DNA of 47,901 bases from Gemmatimonadaceae bacterium (GTDB taxonomy: Bacteria; Gemmatimonadota; Gemmatimonadetes; Gemmatimonadales; Gemmatimonadaceae), in contig JAIEMN010000031.1 in assembly GCA_019752115.1 (NCBI GenBank), positions 1 through 47,901 of the forward strand. Reading direction: 5' to 3'. A program made the translations under genes and the position numbers. The notes beneath the pieces are model-generated. The model had not been told where the DNA came from. It did not search any database and worked only from the letters and a program-made list of their open reading frames with translations. Each line of letters opens with the position of its first letter. The first letter of the stretch is position 1. Of the stretch, positions 38,342-44,696 are shown in pieces.

Positions 38342-38761
38342 CTACTTGGCGGCCTCGCCCTCGACGGTCGGCCGGTAGCTCCCGAAATGCCACTCGTGCC
38401 CCTCGGGATCGCGCACACTCCACTCACGGGCGCCGTAGCTGGTGTCGTAGGGCGCGCGGACCACCGTCGCCCCGGCCGCCACCGCCCGCTCGAACGCGGC
38501 GTCGATGTCCCCAGTGACGCCGTAGCAGAGCGTCGCATTGCGCGCCGGCAGGTCCAGCGGGCTCACCCAGCCGAGTTCGGGCTTGCTGTTCCCGAGCATC
38601 AGGATCTCGCTGCCGAGCGCGAGCTCGACATGCTGCGGGATGCCGTGCTCGTCCCGATAGACCACGTGCTCGGTGAAGCCGAACGCCCGCCCGAGAAACG
38701 CAATGGCGGCGTCGGCGTCGCGGTACGACAGACAGGGATAACACTTGTAGGCGTGCAGCAT
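38342..38761 (-). CDS. VOC-superfamily (glyoxalase/PhnB-like) protein
   Basis: The 139-residue product has the paired beta-alpha-beta-beta-beta layout of glyoxalase/bleomycin-resistance proteins: YRDADAAIAFLGRAFGF at the start of module 1 and DIDAAFERAVAAGATVVRAP then WSVRDPEGHEWHFG in module 2. The metal site and substrate cannot be told from sequence. AGAGGAG precedes the ATG. Confidence 0.88.
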   Translation of the reverse strand: MLHAYKCYPCLSYRDADAAIAFLGRAFGFTEHVVYRDEHGIPQHVELALGSEILMLGNSKPELGWVSPLDLPARNATLCYGVTGDIDAAFERAVAAGATVVRAPYDTSYGAREWSVRDPEGHEWHFGSYRPTVEGEAAK

Positions 38762-38850
38762 GCGGGCTCCTCTCGTGACGGTGGTGTTCCTCGGAGGGTA
38801 GTCGCTAGATGGTCACCCGACTTGAACGTTTTTTCGTCGGATACATCGAT

Positions 38851-38954
38851 GGGCCTGCCCTGCGGAGCTACGGAGTTCCGGTGCAACGGAGGCGTCAGGT
38901 ATCGATGCCACGTCCCCGCCCCTCCGCTTCGCCGCCCCTCCGCAGGTCAGGCCC
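38851..38954. repeat. Repeat family C, gene-less element
   Basis: GGGCCTGCCCTGCGGAG at 38851-38867 and CTCCGCAGGTCAGGCCC at 38938-38954 are inverted repeats with one mismatch over 17 bp. The left arm is identical to the outer end of the unit carrying the GxxExxY gene (43454-43470). The 70 bases between the arms contain no gene. It is the main content of the 211-base gap 38762-38972. Confidence 0.8.
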
Positions 38955-38972
38955 GGCTGATCCGCTCACGCG

Positions 38973-39815
38973 CTATCGCTCGGCGTTCGGCAACGCGATC
39001 GACACCCGCCGCGCCCACGTTGACGGCGCCTCACCGGCATAGCGGTGGAACGCGCGGGTGAGATGCGCATGATCGGCATACCCACACGCCGCTGCGATGT
39101 GGCTCCACGACGGCGCGCCCGGACGTCGTGCCAATTGCACGGCGTGCTCGAAGCGCAGAATGCCCGCCAATCGCTTGGGGGTGAATCCGGTGGCCTCGCG
39201 CATGGCGGCCCCGAGCCGCGCGGCGCTCCAGCCGGTGTCGTGCTGCAGCTGCTCGATACGGACCTGGCCACGCGTCTCGACCAGCGTGCGATACGCCTGC
39301 TGCACCGCGCGCGCGGTGACCGGCGTGCGTGCGAGACGCGCGAGGAGAAAGGCGTCGATCAGGCGCACGCGTTCGGCGAAGGTGGCGGCGTTGCCCAGAT
39401 GCTCGGTGAACGCCCGTCCGCTCGCGCCGAGCGCGTCGTCGATCCCGCACGATTGGTTGGCGAGCCGCGCCATCGGGATGCCCAGCACGCGTTGCGCCGC
39501 GAGCGGCGTGAGATTCACCTGGACCGCGTCGGCGCTCGTGGCGCCGGTGACGTCCACCCACGTGTCGTAGACGCCCGCCGTGAACGACGCGCGCTGCGCC
39601 GTCGGGTGCGCGGGGGAGGCGATGGTGTACGCGGCGTCGAAGTTCACGATGAGCGGCACGATCGCGGCCGCGCATTCTCGGCGCACGGTGGGGGCGACGC
39701 TCTGCTCGCGCCACGCGACATACGCGCCCACGACATGCTCGCGCAGACGCGCGTCGGGGAGTGCCTGCTCCACCTCCCACCAGCCGCCATCCCACTGCTG
39801 CCGGTGGACCGCCAC
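38973..39815 (-). CDS. AraC-family transcription regulator
   Basis: The 280-residue product has a C-terminal double helix-turn-helix of the AraC/XylS type (about 175-270), including AARLGAAMREATGFTPKRLAGILRFEHAVQLAR and a SHIAAACGYADHAHLTRAFHRYAG recognition segment. The N-terminal about 150 residues are a sensor domain of unknown ligand. The start is a GTG at 39815, three bases after the stop of the preceding gene. Confidence 0.87.
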   Translation of the reverse strand: MAVHRQQWDGGWWEVEQALPDARLREHVVGAYVAWREQSVAPTVRRECAAAIVPLIVNFDAAYTIASPAHPTAQRASFTAGVYDTWVDVTGATSADAVQVNLTPLAAQRVLGIPMARLANQSCGIDDALGASGRAFTEHLGNAATFAERVRLIDAFLLARLARTPVTARAVQQAYRTLVETRGQVRIEQLQHDTGWSAARLGAAMREATGFTPKRLAGILRFEHAVQLARRPGAPSWSHIAAACGYADHAHLTRAFHRYAGEAPSTWARRVSIALPNAER

Positions 39816-39818
39816 GGA

Positions 39819-40343
39819 CTAGAACCCGAAGCCGGTGGACCAGGTGATGATGCGGCGGCTGCTCTTGAGCCCCACCGGATCGGCACCGACCCGTGTGTAC
39901 AACCCCAGTTCCCCACCGAGGCCAAGGATGGGCCACACATGGAGCGAGCCACCCACGTACGTGCGCTTCGCGCTCGCCTTGAGCGGATCGTCGAAGGTGC
40001 GCAGGACGCCCGCGGTGAGCGAGGCCCCGCTGCCGAAGTGGCCCAGTGAATTCGCCACGCCCACGTTGAAGCCGGCACCGCCCAGCCCGACCTTGGCCGC
40101 GCCCAGAATGCACCAGTCACTCGTGGCGGACTCGCGCACGTACCCCATGCCGTAGGCGAGCGCCCACTTGAGCGGCGCCCCATACGTGAGCCCGCCCATG
40201 CACTGATCGAACTCCCACGTCACGGTGGGAGTGCGCGCGCTGTCGCTCGCCGCCCGACGCGGCAGGACCTGCGCCCCGAGCGCCTGGCTCGAGACACTCA
40301 AGGCCATACCGAACGCGGCCGCGAACGTACGCGCGTGCGCCAT
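39819..40343 (-). CDS. Small secreted, probably outer-membrane protein
   Basis: The 174-residue product starts with a signal peptide cut near ALGAQ (about residue 24), then has alternating Gly/aromatic strands and a terminal GFGF, consistent with a small outer-membrane beta barrel. I do not recognise a family. Its ATG overlaps the dnaJ TGA by one base (TGATG) and the AraC gene follows closely, so the three may be cotranscribed. Confidence 0.65.
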   Translation of the reverse strand: MAHARTFAAAFGMALSVSSQALGAQVLPRRAASDSARTPTVTWEFDQCMGGLTYGAPLKWALAYGMGYVRESATSDWCILGAAKVGLGGAGFNVGVANSLGHFGSGASLTAGVLRTFDDPLKASAKRTYVGGSLHVWPILGLGGELGLYTRVGADPVGLKSSRRIITWSTGFGF

Positions 40344-41488
40344 CAGTACTTCAACCCGCTCGCTTCCGCGAAATCCCGCATCGCCTTCTCCTGCGCTTCG
40401 CTGAGCGTCTCCGGAACGGTGATGGTGATCTCCACGAGGAGATCGCCCTTGCTGCCGTCTTTCTCGATGCCCTGCCCTGCGACCTTGAACCGCTTGCCGG
40501 CACTCGTGCCCGGCGGAATGCGCAACGCGACCTTCTTGCCATCGAGCGTCTTCACGCTGATGCGGGATCCCAGCGTGGCCTGCGCGATGTTGATCGGCAC
40601 CGTGGCGATGAGATCGAGGCCGTCGCGCTTGTAGAAGCGGTCGGGCTGTACGGCAAAGGTGATGATCAGATCGCCGGGCTGTCCACCGGCAGCGCCCTTG
40701 CCTCCCTGACCCCGCAGCCGAACCTTGGTTCCCGTTTCGGCGCCGGCGGGCACCGTGATCAGGACCGTCCGGCGGGCGCGGGCCTCACCGGTCCCACGGC
40801 AGGTGGGGCACCGTTCCGAGGGGACGCTCCCGCGCCCCATGCACACCGGGCACGGGCGATTGACGGCAAAGCTCCCCTGCCCGAACGAGATCACCCCGCG
40901 GCCCGCACACTCGCCGCACGGCTTGACCTGGGCGCCCGGGGCCGCGCCGGTGCCCCGGCACATCCCGCACTCTTCGTTCACATCGATCTCGACCGGCACC
41001 TTGCCGCCCGTCGCGGCGATGCGGAACGGGACTTCGACGGTCTGTTCAACCGACTGTCCCTTCTCCGGCCCCTTCTGTCGCGCCCGCGCGCCGGCACCGC
41101 CGGCCGCGCCGCCGAACATCGAGGAGAAGAGATCGCCCAGCCCGCCGATGCCACCGATGTCGAAATCGGTGAAGGTGCCGGCGCCCGCCTGCCCCGGTCC
41201 CGGGCGCGTGCTGGCGCCGGGGCGCGACGCGCGCGCGCCACCAAAGCCGCCGACGCCACCGAAGGCGCCGAGGCGACGCATGTCGTCGTACTGCTTTCGC
41301 TTCTCGGCGTCGCCGAGGACGTTGTACGCCTCGGAGATCTCCTTGAAGCGTTCGGCGGCCTTGGGATCGTTCTGGTTCGCGTCGGGATGGTACTGCTTCG
41401 CCAGACGGCGATACTGCTTCTTGATCTCGTCGGCCGTCGCCGACGACGAGACCCCGAGGACCGCGTAGAAATCGGTGCCGTTGGCCAT
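40343..41488 (-). CDS. dnaJ: Chaperone DnaJ
   Basis: The 381-residue product has a J domain (1-70) with HPD in YHPDANQND, a Gly-rich linker (about 75-125), four CxxCxGxG zinc repeats (CGMCRGTG, CGECAGRG, CPVCMGRG, CPTCRGTG; about 170-235) and a C-terminal substrate domain. It stimulates DnaK ATPase. It follows grpE by 22 bases; dnaK is not in the window. Confidence 0.97.
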   Translation of the reverse strand: MANGTDFYAVLGVSSSATADEIKKQYRRLAKQYHPDANQNDPKAAERFKEISEAYNVLGDAEKRKQYDDMRRLGAFGGVGGFGGARASRPGASTRPGPGQAGAGTFTDFDIGGIGGLGDLFSSMFGGAAGGAGARARQKGPEKGQSVEQTVEVPFRIAATGGKVPVEIDVNEECGMCRGTGAAPGAQVKPCGECAGRGVISFGQGSFAVNRPCPVCMGRGSVPSERCPTCRGTGEARARRTVLITVPAGAETGTKVRLRGQGGKGAAGGQPGDLIITFAVQPDRFYKRDGLDLIATVPINIAQATLGSRISVKTLDGKKVALRIPPGTSAGKRFKVAGQGIEKDGSKGDLLVEITITVPETLSEAQEKAMRDFAEASGLKY

Positions 41489-41510
41489 GATGAGGGGTGG
41501 CCCTGCTCGC

Positions 41511-42062
41511 TCAGTTGCCTGTGAACTGCTTCACGACCACGCGCGCAGGACGCAGCACGTGGCCATTGATCACATACCCCGCCTGGAAGCAGACGGCCAC
41601 GACACCATCCTGTTCGGCGCTTTCCGCCGGCGCCGTGGTGACCGCTTCGTGCAGGTTCGGATTGAAGGGATGCCCGGTCGGGTCGACGACTTCGAAGCCG
41701 TGCCCCGCGAGCGACTTGAAGAGCTTCTTCTCCACCATCGCCACCCCATCCACGACGGTCTTGGCATCGACCGTGGTGGGATCGACGTGGGCGAAGCGGG
41801 TGATGTCATCGAGCGCATCGAGGAGGCCGCGCACGAGGTCCCCCTGCGCCCGCCAGCCGGCTTCCTGTCGCTCCTTGGTGGCGCGGCGGCGGAAGTTCTC
41901 GAATTCGGCCGCCAGGCGGAGGTACTTGTCCTTGGACGCCTCGAGCTCGGCGGCCAGCCCGCTGTCGGGGGCGGCGCCGTCAGCCTGCGGCTGGGCCTGG
42001 GTCTCGGGGGCATCGACCGCGCTGGTCGGGTCGAGCGGTTCGCTGGTCGTGGGATCAGTCAT
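41511..42062 (-). CDS. grpE: Nucleotide exchange factor GrpE
   Basis: The 183-residue product has an N-terminal Ala/Gln-rich region, a long helix with DKYLRLAAEFENFRRRATKER (about 50-70) and a C-terminal beta domain with GFEVVDPTGHPFNPNLHEAV. GrpE releases ADP from DnaK. The grpE-dnaJ order is common. Confidence 0.96.
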   Translation of the reverse strand: MTDPTTSEPLDPTSAVDAPETQAQPQADGAAPDSGLAAELEASKDKYLRLAAEFENFRRRATKERQEAGWRAQGDLVRGLLDALDDITRFAHVDPTTVDAKTVVDGVAMVEKKLFKSLAGHGFEVVDPTGHPFNPNLHEAVTTAPAESAEQDGVVAVCFQAGYVINGHVLRPARVVVKQFTGN

Positions 42063-42140
42063 ATGGCAGAGCGTACGTGAGGTCGAGCCGGAAAGTTCGG
42101 GACTAACCGGGGCCGGCTCAAGGCATGGCGGGGGCGGAGC

Positions 42141-43421
42141 TCAGCCCCGGGAGGTCCAGCCGGTGGCGTCGGGATCGCGTTCGAAGGCGCGTCGGAGGCG
42201 GTCGAGCCCCAGCTGGGCCGCCCGGTAGCGGATCTCGTTCCGATCGCCGGGGAGCACGGCCCGTACCGCATGGACCTCGCCAGCCACGTCCACGGCCACC
42301 CACACGGTGCCGACGGGCTTCTCGGGGGTGCCGCCGTCGGGGCCGGCGATTCCGGTGATGCCGATGCCCACGGTGCTGCCAAAGCGGAGGCGCACGCCGG
42401 TGGCCATGGCCCGCGCGACGGGCTCGCTGACCGCGCCTTCGGCAGCAATCACCTCGGCCGGGACCCCCAGCTCGCGTGTCTTGACCTCGTTGGCGTAGGC
42501 GATGATCCCGCCGAGCATCACGGCACTCGATCCGGGGATCGCGGTGAGTCGCTCGCCAAGCATCCCGCCCGTGCAGCTCTCGGCCACCGCGATGGTGGCG
42601 CTGCGCGCGCGACACTCGAGGAGCATCAGCGCCGCGAGATCGTCGGCGTTCTCGCCGTAGACGAACGTGCCGACCTTCTCACGCAGCTGATTGGCCGCGT
42701 CACGCAGTGCCTTCTCGGCCTCACGCGCGGGCAGGCTCCAACTGGTGAGTCGCAGATCGACACCGTCATTGCCCGGCAGATACGCGAGCGACAGTCCGTT
42801 GATGCCGCGCGCGAGTTCGCCGAGCCGATCGGCCACGGCGGATTCCGCGATGTTCGCGGTGCGCAACGTGAGCGAACGAATGACCGGCCCATCGGTGGCC
42901 ATGCGATCACGCAGAAACGGAATCAGCGTATCACCGAGCATCCCGCGCATTTCACGCGGCACCCCCGGCAGCATCGCCACCCACCGCTGCTGCGCATCTT
43001 CGAGATAGATGCCGGGCGCGGAGCCGTGCCGATTAGGCAGAATGATCGCGCCCTCGGGGACCATCGCCTGCTGCTTGTTGCTCTCGGGGATCTCGGTATT
43101 GAAGCGCTTGCGCCAGCGCTCCTGGAGATTGGTGAGGATCTGCTCGTCCATCACCATGCCCTTGCCGAAGATGCTGGCGATCGCCGGCTTCGTCATGTCA
43201 TCGGCGGTGGGGCCAAGACCGCCAGTGGTAATGACGGCACCGGTCCGCTCCAGTGCCTGCTGCACCGCGTCGCGAATGGACGTCGCCTCATCGCCGCAGG
43301 TGGTGCGTCGCACGATGCGCACGCCAAGCGCCGCGAATTCCCGCGCGAGATGCGCGGCGTTGGTATCGATGGTGAAGCCGAGCAGGAGCTCGTCGCCGAT
43401 GGTGACGATTTCGAGGTTCAT
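42141..43421 (-). CDS. cinA: CinA-family nicotinamide-nucleotide amidase
   Basis: The 426-residue product has an N-terminal MoaB/MogA-like domain (EIVTIGDELLLGFTIDTNAAHLARE, then TTGGLGPTADDMT) and a C-terminal PncC-type amidase domain (AESCTGGMLGERLTAIPGSS, then GITGIAGPDGGTPEKPVGTV). It recycles pyridine nucleotides; the competence link of the name is not general. Both domains appear intact. Confidence 0.95.
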   Translation of the reverse strand: MNLEIVTIGDELLLGFTIDTNAAHLAREFAALGVRIVRRTTCGDEATSIRDAVQQALERTGAVITTGGLGPTADDMTKPAIASIFGKGMVMDEQILTNLQERWRKRFNTEIPESNKQQAMVPEGAIILPNRHGSAPGIYLEDAQQRWVAMLPGVPREMRGMLGDTLIPFLRDRMATDGPVIRSLTLRTANIAESAVADRLGELARGINGLSLAYLPGNDGVDLRLTSWSLPAREAEKALRDAANQLREKVGTFVYGENADDLAALMLLECRARSATIAVAESCTGGMLGERLTAIPGSSAVMLGGIIAYANEVKTRELGVPAEVIAAEGAVSEPVARAMATGVRLRFGSTVGIGITGIAGPDGGTPEKPVGTVWVAVDVAGEVHAVRAVLPGDRNEIRYRAAQLGLDRLRRAFERDPDATGWTSRG

Positions 43422-43453
43422 GCTCTGAATCTAGCGCATGGCCGCATCACACT

Positions 43454-43499
43454 GGGCCTGCCCTGCGGAGGAGCGGAGGGGTGGGGCAGCGGAGGGCCT
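43454..43499. repeat. Repeat family C, left inverted end of the GxxExxY unit
   Basis: Bases 43456-43495 match the reverse complement of 43951-43990 at 34 of 40 positions: 15 perfect at the outer end, 9 of 15 in the middle, 10 perfect at the inner end. The outer 17 bases (43454-43470) are identical to 38851-38867. Confidence 0.85.
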
Positions 43500-43544
43500 G
43501 CGGCGCGATGACGCCTCGGTGACGAAAGCTCGTATTGGTCAGCG

Positions 43545-43946
43545 ATGGCACTTATCCCTCTTCACGAGGCTATCACCGGCGACGTCGTGGACGCGAGCAT
43601 CGCGATTCACCGTGACTTGGGGCCGGGGCTCTTTGAATCAGTATACGAAGTGCTGCTCTCGGACGAGCTGATTGCTCGCGGGCACCGGGTCGCCCGACAG
43701 GTCGAAGTTCCGCTTCGCTACCGAGGGCGTGAGATCGCGCATGCCTTCCGTCTGGACCTACTTGTCGACGACGTGGTTGTCGTAGAGATCAAGGCTACCG
43801 ACCGGTCGTCGCCGGTGCACGCGCGCCAGCTCCTGACGTATCTGAGAGTCATGCAACTGCCGATCGGGCTTGTCGTCAACTTCGGCATGCCGAGGATGAT
43901 CGACGGGATTACGCGGGTCACCACTACCCGCTTCATCCCCCGTTGA
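43545..43946 (+). CDS. GxxExxY protein with PD-(D/E)XK nuclease-like core
   Basis: The 133-residue product has the name-giving motif G28-L-F-E31-S-V-Y34 and, further on, Asp71, then Glu81-x-Lys83 (VVVVEIKA) and Gln95 (RQLLTYL). That spacing is typical of PD-(D/E)XK nuclease folds; GxxExxY proteins (Pfam PDDEXK_3) have no established role. The gene lies on the opposite strand to its neighbours and is enclosed by 40-bp inverted repeats whose right end begins 5 bases after the stop. This layout suggests a small mobile or accessory unit. Confidence 0.9.
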   Translation: MALIPLHEAITGDVVDASIAIHRDLGPGLFESVYEVLLSDELIARGHRVARQVEVPLRYRGREIAHAFRLDLLVDDVVVVEIKATDRSSPVHARQLLTYLRVMQLPIGLVVNFGMPRMIDGITRVTTTRFIPR

Positions 43947-43992
43947 AAGGCCTCCGCTGCTCTCACGCTCCGCCCCTCCGCAGGGCAGGCAC
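43947..43992. repeat. Repeat family C, right inverted end of the GxxExxY unit
   Basis: The reverse complement of 43951-43990 matches the left end at 34 of 40 positions. An ACTG follows at 43991-43994 and another precedes the left end at 43451-43454, a possible 4-base target duplication, though this short match could be chance. Confidence 0.8.
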
Positions 43993-44021
43993 TGCCCAAC
44001 CTACCGGCGAGCCGACCTCAG

Positions 44022-44696
44022 TCAGGCCAGCCGCACCACCTGGCGGCCGTAGCGGCGCAGGTAGAGCCACAGCGAATACACCGTGAGCGCCACGGCACCG
44101 ATCATCGACGCGACGCCGACGAAGCCGTTGAAGAGGGCGAAGGCGCGCCAGGCGGAGTCGTCGAGCCAGCCGCGGTGGGTGGCGAAGGTGATCGCGAAGA
44201 ACCAGAAATACGCTGCGCCGAGCCAGACGCTCTGGAAGGCCGTCTTCCACTTGGCCGGGCCGATGGCGGCGATGACGAGGCCGCGGCGGGCGGCGACCTG
44301 ACGGAAGATCGTCATGAAGGCCTCGCGGCCGAGCACGACGATCACGATCCAGAGCGGGAGCGAGACCTTGCCGAACGGCGTCGCGAAGAGGAACGGCGAC
44401 GGCGACGGCGTCGCGCCATCCGGGACGAGCAGCGCGTAGTGCTTCTGCAGGATGTACATCGGCACCAGCGTCGCCAGCAGGAGCAGCTTGTCGGCGAGGG
44501 GATCGAGCAACCGGCCGAGGTCGGTCACCAGATTGCGCTCACGCGCCAGGTGGCCGTCCCAGTAGTCGGTGACGGCGGCGATCACGAAGAGCATGAACGC
44601 GATGAGGCGTGCGCTCCACGTGGTCGTGAACGGCAGCCACGCAATCAGCGGCGTCAGGGCAATGCGGCCAACAGTGATTGCGTTCGGCAGGTTCAC
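44022..44696 (-). CDS. pgsA: CDP-alcohol phosphatidyltransferase, probably phosphatidylglycerophosphate synthase
   Basis: The 224-residue membrane protein carries the family signature DYWDGHLARERNLVTDLGRL followed by LDPLAD, matching D-x2-DG-x2-AR-x8-G-x3-D-x3-D with all catalytic Asp residues. It opens with MNLPNAITVGRI, typical of PgsA, which makes phosphatidylglycerophosphate from CDP-diacylglycerol and glycerol 3-phosphate. Substrate choice within the family is inferred. Confidence 0.9.
   Translation of the reverse strand: MNLPNAITVGRIALTPLIAWLPFTTTWSARLIAFMLFVIAAVTDYWDGHLARERNLVTDLGRLLDPLADKLLLLATLVPMYILQKHYALLVPDGATPSPSPFLFATPFGKVSLPLWIVIVVLGREAFMTIFRQVAARRGLVIAAIGPAKWKTAFQSVWLGAAYFWFFAITFATHRGWLDDSAWRAFALFNGFVGVASMIGAVALTVYSLWLYLRRYGRQVVRLA

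Follow-up and report, generated by a model that had tools for sequence, protein, structure and literature searches.

Does a small gene that is enclosed by inverted repeats belong together with those repeats, and is the whole a mobile unit? The question was raised by a locus in contig JAIEMN010000031.1 of a Gemmatimonadaceae bacterium, of which a stretch of 47,901 nucleotides was analysed (referred to as the window). A first-pass annotation had read this locus as a mobile unit consisting of a repeat and a GxxExxY protein.

The window unit and its protein

The unit is located between cinA (42141-43421, minus strand), the start of which marks the occupied or empty junction, and pgsA (44022-44696, minus strand), which was used to locate orthologous junctions. 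The sole gene between its arms encodes a GxxExxY protein of 133 aa (43545-43946, plus strand) and was confirmed to lie on the strand opposite to both neighbours. The left (43456-43495, plus strand) and right (43951-43990, minus strand) inverted arms are 40 nt each and 34/40 (85%) complementary, in agreement with the annotated 34 identical bases. These 40-bp ends are real; their octamer make-up and outer extension had been overlooked. The left arm is composed of an outer GCCTGCC and four octamers at 43463-43494 (plus strand; CTGCGGAG GAGCGGAG GGGTGGGG CAGCGGAG), and the right arm likewise has an outer GCCTGCC and the same four-octamer plan (CTGCGGAG GGGCGGAG CGTGAGAG CAGCGGAG). The gene-less element that had been reported to share these ends was also recovered. 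It is an intergenic palindrome (solo copy; 38853-38952, no strand) with octamer units in the four-octamer plan of the window arms, and its outer 16-mers are one mismatch away from the ends of the window unit.

ACTG is present on both sides of the unit as annotated (43451-43454 and 43991-43994, no strand). It is probably not a target duplication, as the motif falls in the arm's own outer extension; beyond the right arm it corresponds to the outer extension (CACAGC-like) of gene-less copies. The outer edges of gene-less copies were inverted, not direct. Eight of nine such copies were without a direct repeat of at least 3 bp at their edges and one had a direct repeat of 4 bp, so that the target-site duplication at both ends expected of an insertion sequence or MITE was not found.

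The protein matched PF13366 (E 1.2e-34, 119.6 bits, cut-off 22) and TIGR04256 GxxExxY (E 7e-35, 119.9 bits, cut-off 35) and was assigned to the GxxExxY/PDDEXK_3 family. No other Pfam family exceeded its cut-off in the unit, PDDEXK_3 being the only gene. In an alignment of 61 diverse homologues, residues E31, Y34, D71, K83, Y99 and R124 were invariant and E81 and Q95 nearly so. The annotated nuclease-like core (D71, E81-x-K83, Q95) was thereby borne out, with D71, E81-x-K83 and Q95xxxY99 invariant or at least 90% conserved. An AF2 model (pLDDT 95.5) had the helix-strand order of the PD-(D/E)XK fold; core fold, D...(D/E)xK and QxxxY motifs were those of the RecB/Cas4-like branch of these nucleases. 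The nearest structural neighbour was SSO0001 (Cas4 family, Z 9.2), followed by restriction-endonuclease-like folds and Hjc resolvases. Because the best Foldseek E was just 2.3e-3, this is a fold match at superfamily level and not a match to a close relative; no solved structure was found by sequence at E<=1. Assignment to Cas4 itself was rejected (PF01930 16.2 bits, below the cut-off of 22.7; zero cysteines versus the Fe-S cluster cysteines of Cas4). The modelled fold and the conservation of the active site thus mark GxxExxY as a small predicted nuclease of the Cas4/RecB-like PD-(D/E)XK type. The family (TIGR04256) is widespread and without known function, and only a passing mention of it was found in the literature searched.

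Bracketing of GxxExxY genes and the repeat unit

For the detection of arms, the upstream flank of a gene was locally aligned with its reverse-complemented downstream flank, and scores of at least 18 were counted as arms. Loci were identified with an HMM and comprised 74 GxxExxY copies from the window's genus, 68 from its phylum and 76 from a wider set. Cross-paired flanks and other ORFs of 90-200 aa from the same loci, mechanically defined, were used as controls. Arms were detected around 15/74 genes of the genus, 31/68 of the phylum and 38/76 of the wider set, the last of which was retrieved with a query built in part from bracketed genes. The query for the phylum set was not built in this way, and that set gives 46%. 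The respective control ORFs yielded 0/236, 0/175 and 0.3% of 1,276, and GxxExxY genes are thus preferentially bracketed by inverted arms. Cross-paired flanks reached the threshold in 0.6% (genus), 1.3% (phylum) and 3.6% (wider set) of cases, a rate inflated by the unit that unrelated copies have in common. The wider set spans relatives of Sphingomonas and Geobacter, Verrucomicrobia, Planctomycetes, Cyanobacteria, Bacteroidetes, Chloroflexi and the methanogenic archaeon Methanothrix. The window arms scored 25.5 and are more than chance, considering the genus values of both controls and the folding z of -6.8 for the 544-nt unit.

Many GxxExxY genes without repeats would speak against a link between the two, and here the outcome was mixed: arms went undetected around roughly half of the copies in the phylum and beyond it, and around some 80% of those in the genus. 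On the gene tree the bracket state changed 51 times, compared with 64.6 changes for shuffled labels, and therefore follows the protein phylogeny weakly. The bracket was rejected as a clade trait; with 51 flips it is a recurrent, decaying feature. In the GxxExxY unit of genome G014 (L065), inverted arms of about 310 nt with many tandem CACGGAG-type units form an expanded array around one gene.

The consensus unit of GxxExxY arms is CRCVRAG, with core spacings of 8 nt in 127 and 9 nt in 81 cases. Upstream of the 69 phylum genes the unit was on the sense strand in 36 and antisense in 7; downstream it was antisense in 24 and sense in 9. Such a one-way orientation fits single arms and would not be produced by paired gene-less palindromes. 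The octamer strings of these arms did not occur in the literature searched.

The window assembly (5.17 Mb, 83 contigs) contains eight GxxExxY genes. Long inverted arms surround three of them and differ in sequence from one gene to the next. Two other units of this genome (L011 and L013) have arms of 67 and 81-84 nt with terminator-like hairpins followed by T-rich stretches, which places the gene between two facing hairpins. The window variant CTGCGGAGGGGCGGAG (at most one mismatch) had 29 matches in the window genome and 0-3 per genome in 16 other sampled genomes of the genus, with a reversed-pattern control near zero; it is almost private to the window genome. Ten pairs of facing arms were present in the window genome loci fetched, at end-to-end distances of 64-96 bp. 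Two near species (G247 and G260) carry dozens of palindromes with the core arm sequence of the local bracketed GxxExxY gene; other species of their genus have few such palindromes or none. In the family-1 palindromes of these two genomes (L310-L322, ~165 bp), an octamer palindrome is enclosed by the outer inverted pair TGATACCGT...ACGGTATCA. Their design resembles a MITE with a nested palindrome, and some copies are without one outer part.

Across 295 phylum genomes, GxxExxY was present in 41/49 octamer-rich genomes versus 62/246 others (Fisher 1.6e-14, with relatedness among genomes only partly removed), and the window's own family shows this co-occurrence too (P 0.002). The octamer-count control was the pattern read backwards; as three-unit arrays match it too, the octamer enrichment is understated. 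In eight octamer-rich genomes (G062, G068, G074, G136, G141, G192, G216, G224), some of them incomplete assemblies, no GxxExxY gene was detected. These cases may reflect loss of the gene, gaps in the assembly or a different cognate gene. S23-family genes were observed in seven of the eight.

The S23/IVS four-helix-bundle family (TIGR02436) was run as a comparison in the window's phylum only. At the same threshold 46/67 S23 genes were bracketed, as opposed to 0/190 control ORFs. Their arms are heptamer arrays, e.g. GGAGTCA, CGGGTGT and AGTGCCC (loci L324-L393). The dominant arm period was 7 nt in 30 and 8 nt in 6 S23 loci versus 7 nt in none and 8-10 nt in 45 GxxExxY loci (Fisher 1.4e-16), and the octamer motif was upstream of 2/28 S23 genes versus 36/69 GxxExxY genes.

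Two alternatives bear on these arrays. The arms might pair in a transcript, as they do in 23S rRNA intervening sequences, and RNase III-type processing would remove or regulate the unit, which would for that reason be tolerated; the protein would act on RNA or be a passenger. The S23 architecture would suit such a scheme, as would the fixed position of the arms relative to gene sense, and in the Coxiella IVS, which is excised by RNase III, tandem heptamers (GACAGAT) precede the S23p ORF (PMC4990558). The window unit, however, is intergenic and opposite in strand to both neighbours and hence outside any host transcript, no Rfam family was matched in 38500-44300, and the closest fold matches of GxxExxY are DNA nucleases. 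Processing at the RNA level is therefore regarded as unlikely.

The other alternative dispenses with a partnership: slippage and template switching would grow and homogenise the octamers, which would merely mark gene-poor spots where small selfish genes persist. Short tandem units do slip, and orphan heptamer arrays without a linked protein have been described in Xanthomonas (GGGAATC) and Nostoc (GGGGATT) (PMC4692102). Slippage alone, however, does not predict that each protein family has its own unit length, that repeat-rich genomes tend to carry GxxExxY, or that genus and phylum control ORFs lack arms, neighbouring ORFs being bracketed less than GxxExxY. We give this explanation little credence.

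Orthologous sites and mobility

A GxxExxY gene was located between cinA and pgsA in six genomes of the window's genus. Ten other genomes of the genus had an empty junction of 48-89 bp, and none of these contained a palindrome; the empty sites sought by comparison of orthologous junctions were thus found. In G025 and G019 (L123, L126) the junction is occupied by a gene-less palindrome of ~295 bp with unrelated arms (GGGGGGCTGGTCCGGCGGTC...). Inverted arms were present at five of the six gene-occupied sites, and their sequence varies by genome. Scores between the left and right arm within one locus were 14.5-30, compared with 6-17.5 for the same arm between two loci. Four loci from different genera at a syntenic site in Sphingomonadaceae carry CACTAAGA, CACGAAGA and CGCAAAGA units. 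Here, within-locus scores were 18-28.5 versus 7-20 between loci, with slightly overlapping distributions. The arms thus turn over in concert while the genes stay at orthologous sites. Concerted arms could also arise by protein-free template switching at quasi-palindromes.

GxxExxY paralogues within one genome are diverged and located at old orthologous sites. A dN/dS ratio was defined for seven ortholog pairs and was 0.06-0.15 in six of them; the seventh, a very close pair, gave 0.41. GxxExxY genes are chromosomal and under purifying selection (dN/dS about 0.1). Carriage by plasmids or phages was rejected: GxxExxY had no match among 50,697 phage records and was found in only 7 of 72,556 plasmid records, all 7 of which were predicted to be non-mobilizable.

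No clean excision was seen. Clean empty sites for dispersed copies were not obtained from G247 and G260 either: one palindrome was missing from the corresponding site of the other species, where the edges were blurred, and another was present in both, which is too few to define insertion edges. The designation as a mobile unit can therefore be kept in part. It agrees with the empty cinA-pgsA junctions and with the gene-less palindrome that a near relative lacks at the corresponding position. It disagrees with units at orthologous sites across genera, old paralogues, the phage and plasmid counts and the lack of a target duplication.

A homing-type element would account for some of these observations. 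The gene-less palindrome would be the target, and the gene of a GxxExxY homing nuclease would be copied into its spacer via matching arms. The gene does sit in the loop of a palindrome that is also found gene-less, the protein has a PD-(D/E)XK fold, the arms would provide homology for recombination, and occupied and empty junctions occur within one genus. Against this, the ten empty junctions are without any palindrome, the 295-bp palindrome of two further genomes has unrelated arms, and recent homing is not visible, since paralogues of one genome are diverged at old orthologous sites. Homing appears improbable on balance.

A probable nuclease-repeat partnership and related systems

Sequence comparison strongly supports a partnership of the GxxExxY protein with the repeat. 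Recurrence across phyla, a fixed orientation, a common unit and the enrichment of the gene in repeat-rich genomes all bear out the annotated view that the two belong together. Because the gene is frequently enclosed by a repeat that is also scattered gene-less, protein and repeat are probably partners, and the repeats would be spread or maintained through this association. The suggestion, made with reservation, that the protein recognises or processes the repeat is a plausible conjecture.

We consider it moderately likely that this partnership is REPIN/RAYT-like, with a Cas4/RecB-like nuclease acting on dispersed octamer palindromes and thereby leading to their copying and homogenisation. In a repeat family that otherwise consists of gene-less octamer palindromes, the window unit would be the 'autonomous' copy that bears the gene. 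GxxExxY would recognise its cognate octamer array, most likely as the hairpin or cruciform of head-to-head arrays, and would cut or process it. Cutting may in rare cases lead to the copying of palindromes to other genomic positions, and the repair that follows may homogenise the arms that flank the GxxExxY gene. A gene that is stable and inherited vertically would thus act in trans on dispersed, species-specific repeats in RAYT/REPIN fashion. We infer binding of the octamers by the protein, a substrate of DNA and not RNA, with the repeat propagated as DNA, and copying that is driven by cutting.

In REPIN/RAYT systems a stable chromosomal gene is flanked by its cognate repeat and accompanied by genome-specific gene-less palindromes (PMC8049555). 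The GxxExxY system shares dispersed short palindromes, one or a few chromosomal genes that are stable, have the cognate repeat on their flanks and hardly ever occur on plasmids or phages, genome-specific variants, and a gene whose presence tracks the abundance of the flanking palindrome. It differs in that GxxExxY is a PD-(D/E)XK protein and not a HUH/Y1 transposase (TnpA-REP), the only gene beside the repeat being PDDEXK_3. Its arms are tandem octamers, in contrast to REP hairpins with GTAG/CGTC tags, and copying of its palindromes is putative. As the protein is unrelated to RAYTs, membership fails and the analogy holds. If the nuclease propagates its array, a second and unrelated kind of protein would have taken on the role that RAYTs have for REPINs. 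In many phyla, the evidence ties a family without known function to a particular dispersed repeat.

MITEs of classical insertion sequences resemble the system in having gene-less copies with the ends of a gene-bearing copy. GxxExxY units differ from them by the lack of target duplications and of a DDE transposase, and by arms that change in sequence at the same orthologous site.

In the 23S rRNA IVS with S23p, too, the loop between two inverted arms holds a single small gene, and many chromosomal S23-family genes of the window's phylum are bracketed in the same way. The arms are heptamers there and octamers here, the protein families are unrelated, and GxxExxY units are outside rRNA; the window unit, being intergenic between cinA and pgsA, is not a 23S rRNA IVS. 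Genome-specific tandem short units are also known from Xanthomonas, Nostoc and Beggiatoaceae (TAACTGA), with 70-75 convergent inverted pairs in Xanthomonas (PMC4692102, PMC4679880). They resemble the octamers and were described without a cognate gene; by the unit lengths observed here, their seven-base units would pair with S23 and not with GxxExxY. A link between IVS heptamers, orphan arrays and GxxExxY octamers was not found in the literature searched; the S23 heptamer parallel connects orphan short-unit arrays, rRNA intervening-sequence proteins and GxxExxY. Tentatively, and with some doubt, these may form a general class in which a small gene lies in the loop of inverted arrays, the unit is specific to the protein family (CRCVRAG octamers for GxxExxY, heptamers for S23), and the protein maintains and spreads its own dispersed palindromes. 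Such a class, if true, would provide orphan heptamer arrays with a cognate protein and two widespread uncharacterised families of small proteins with a function.
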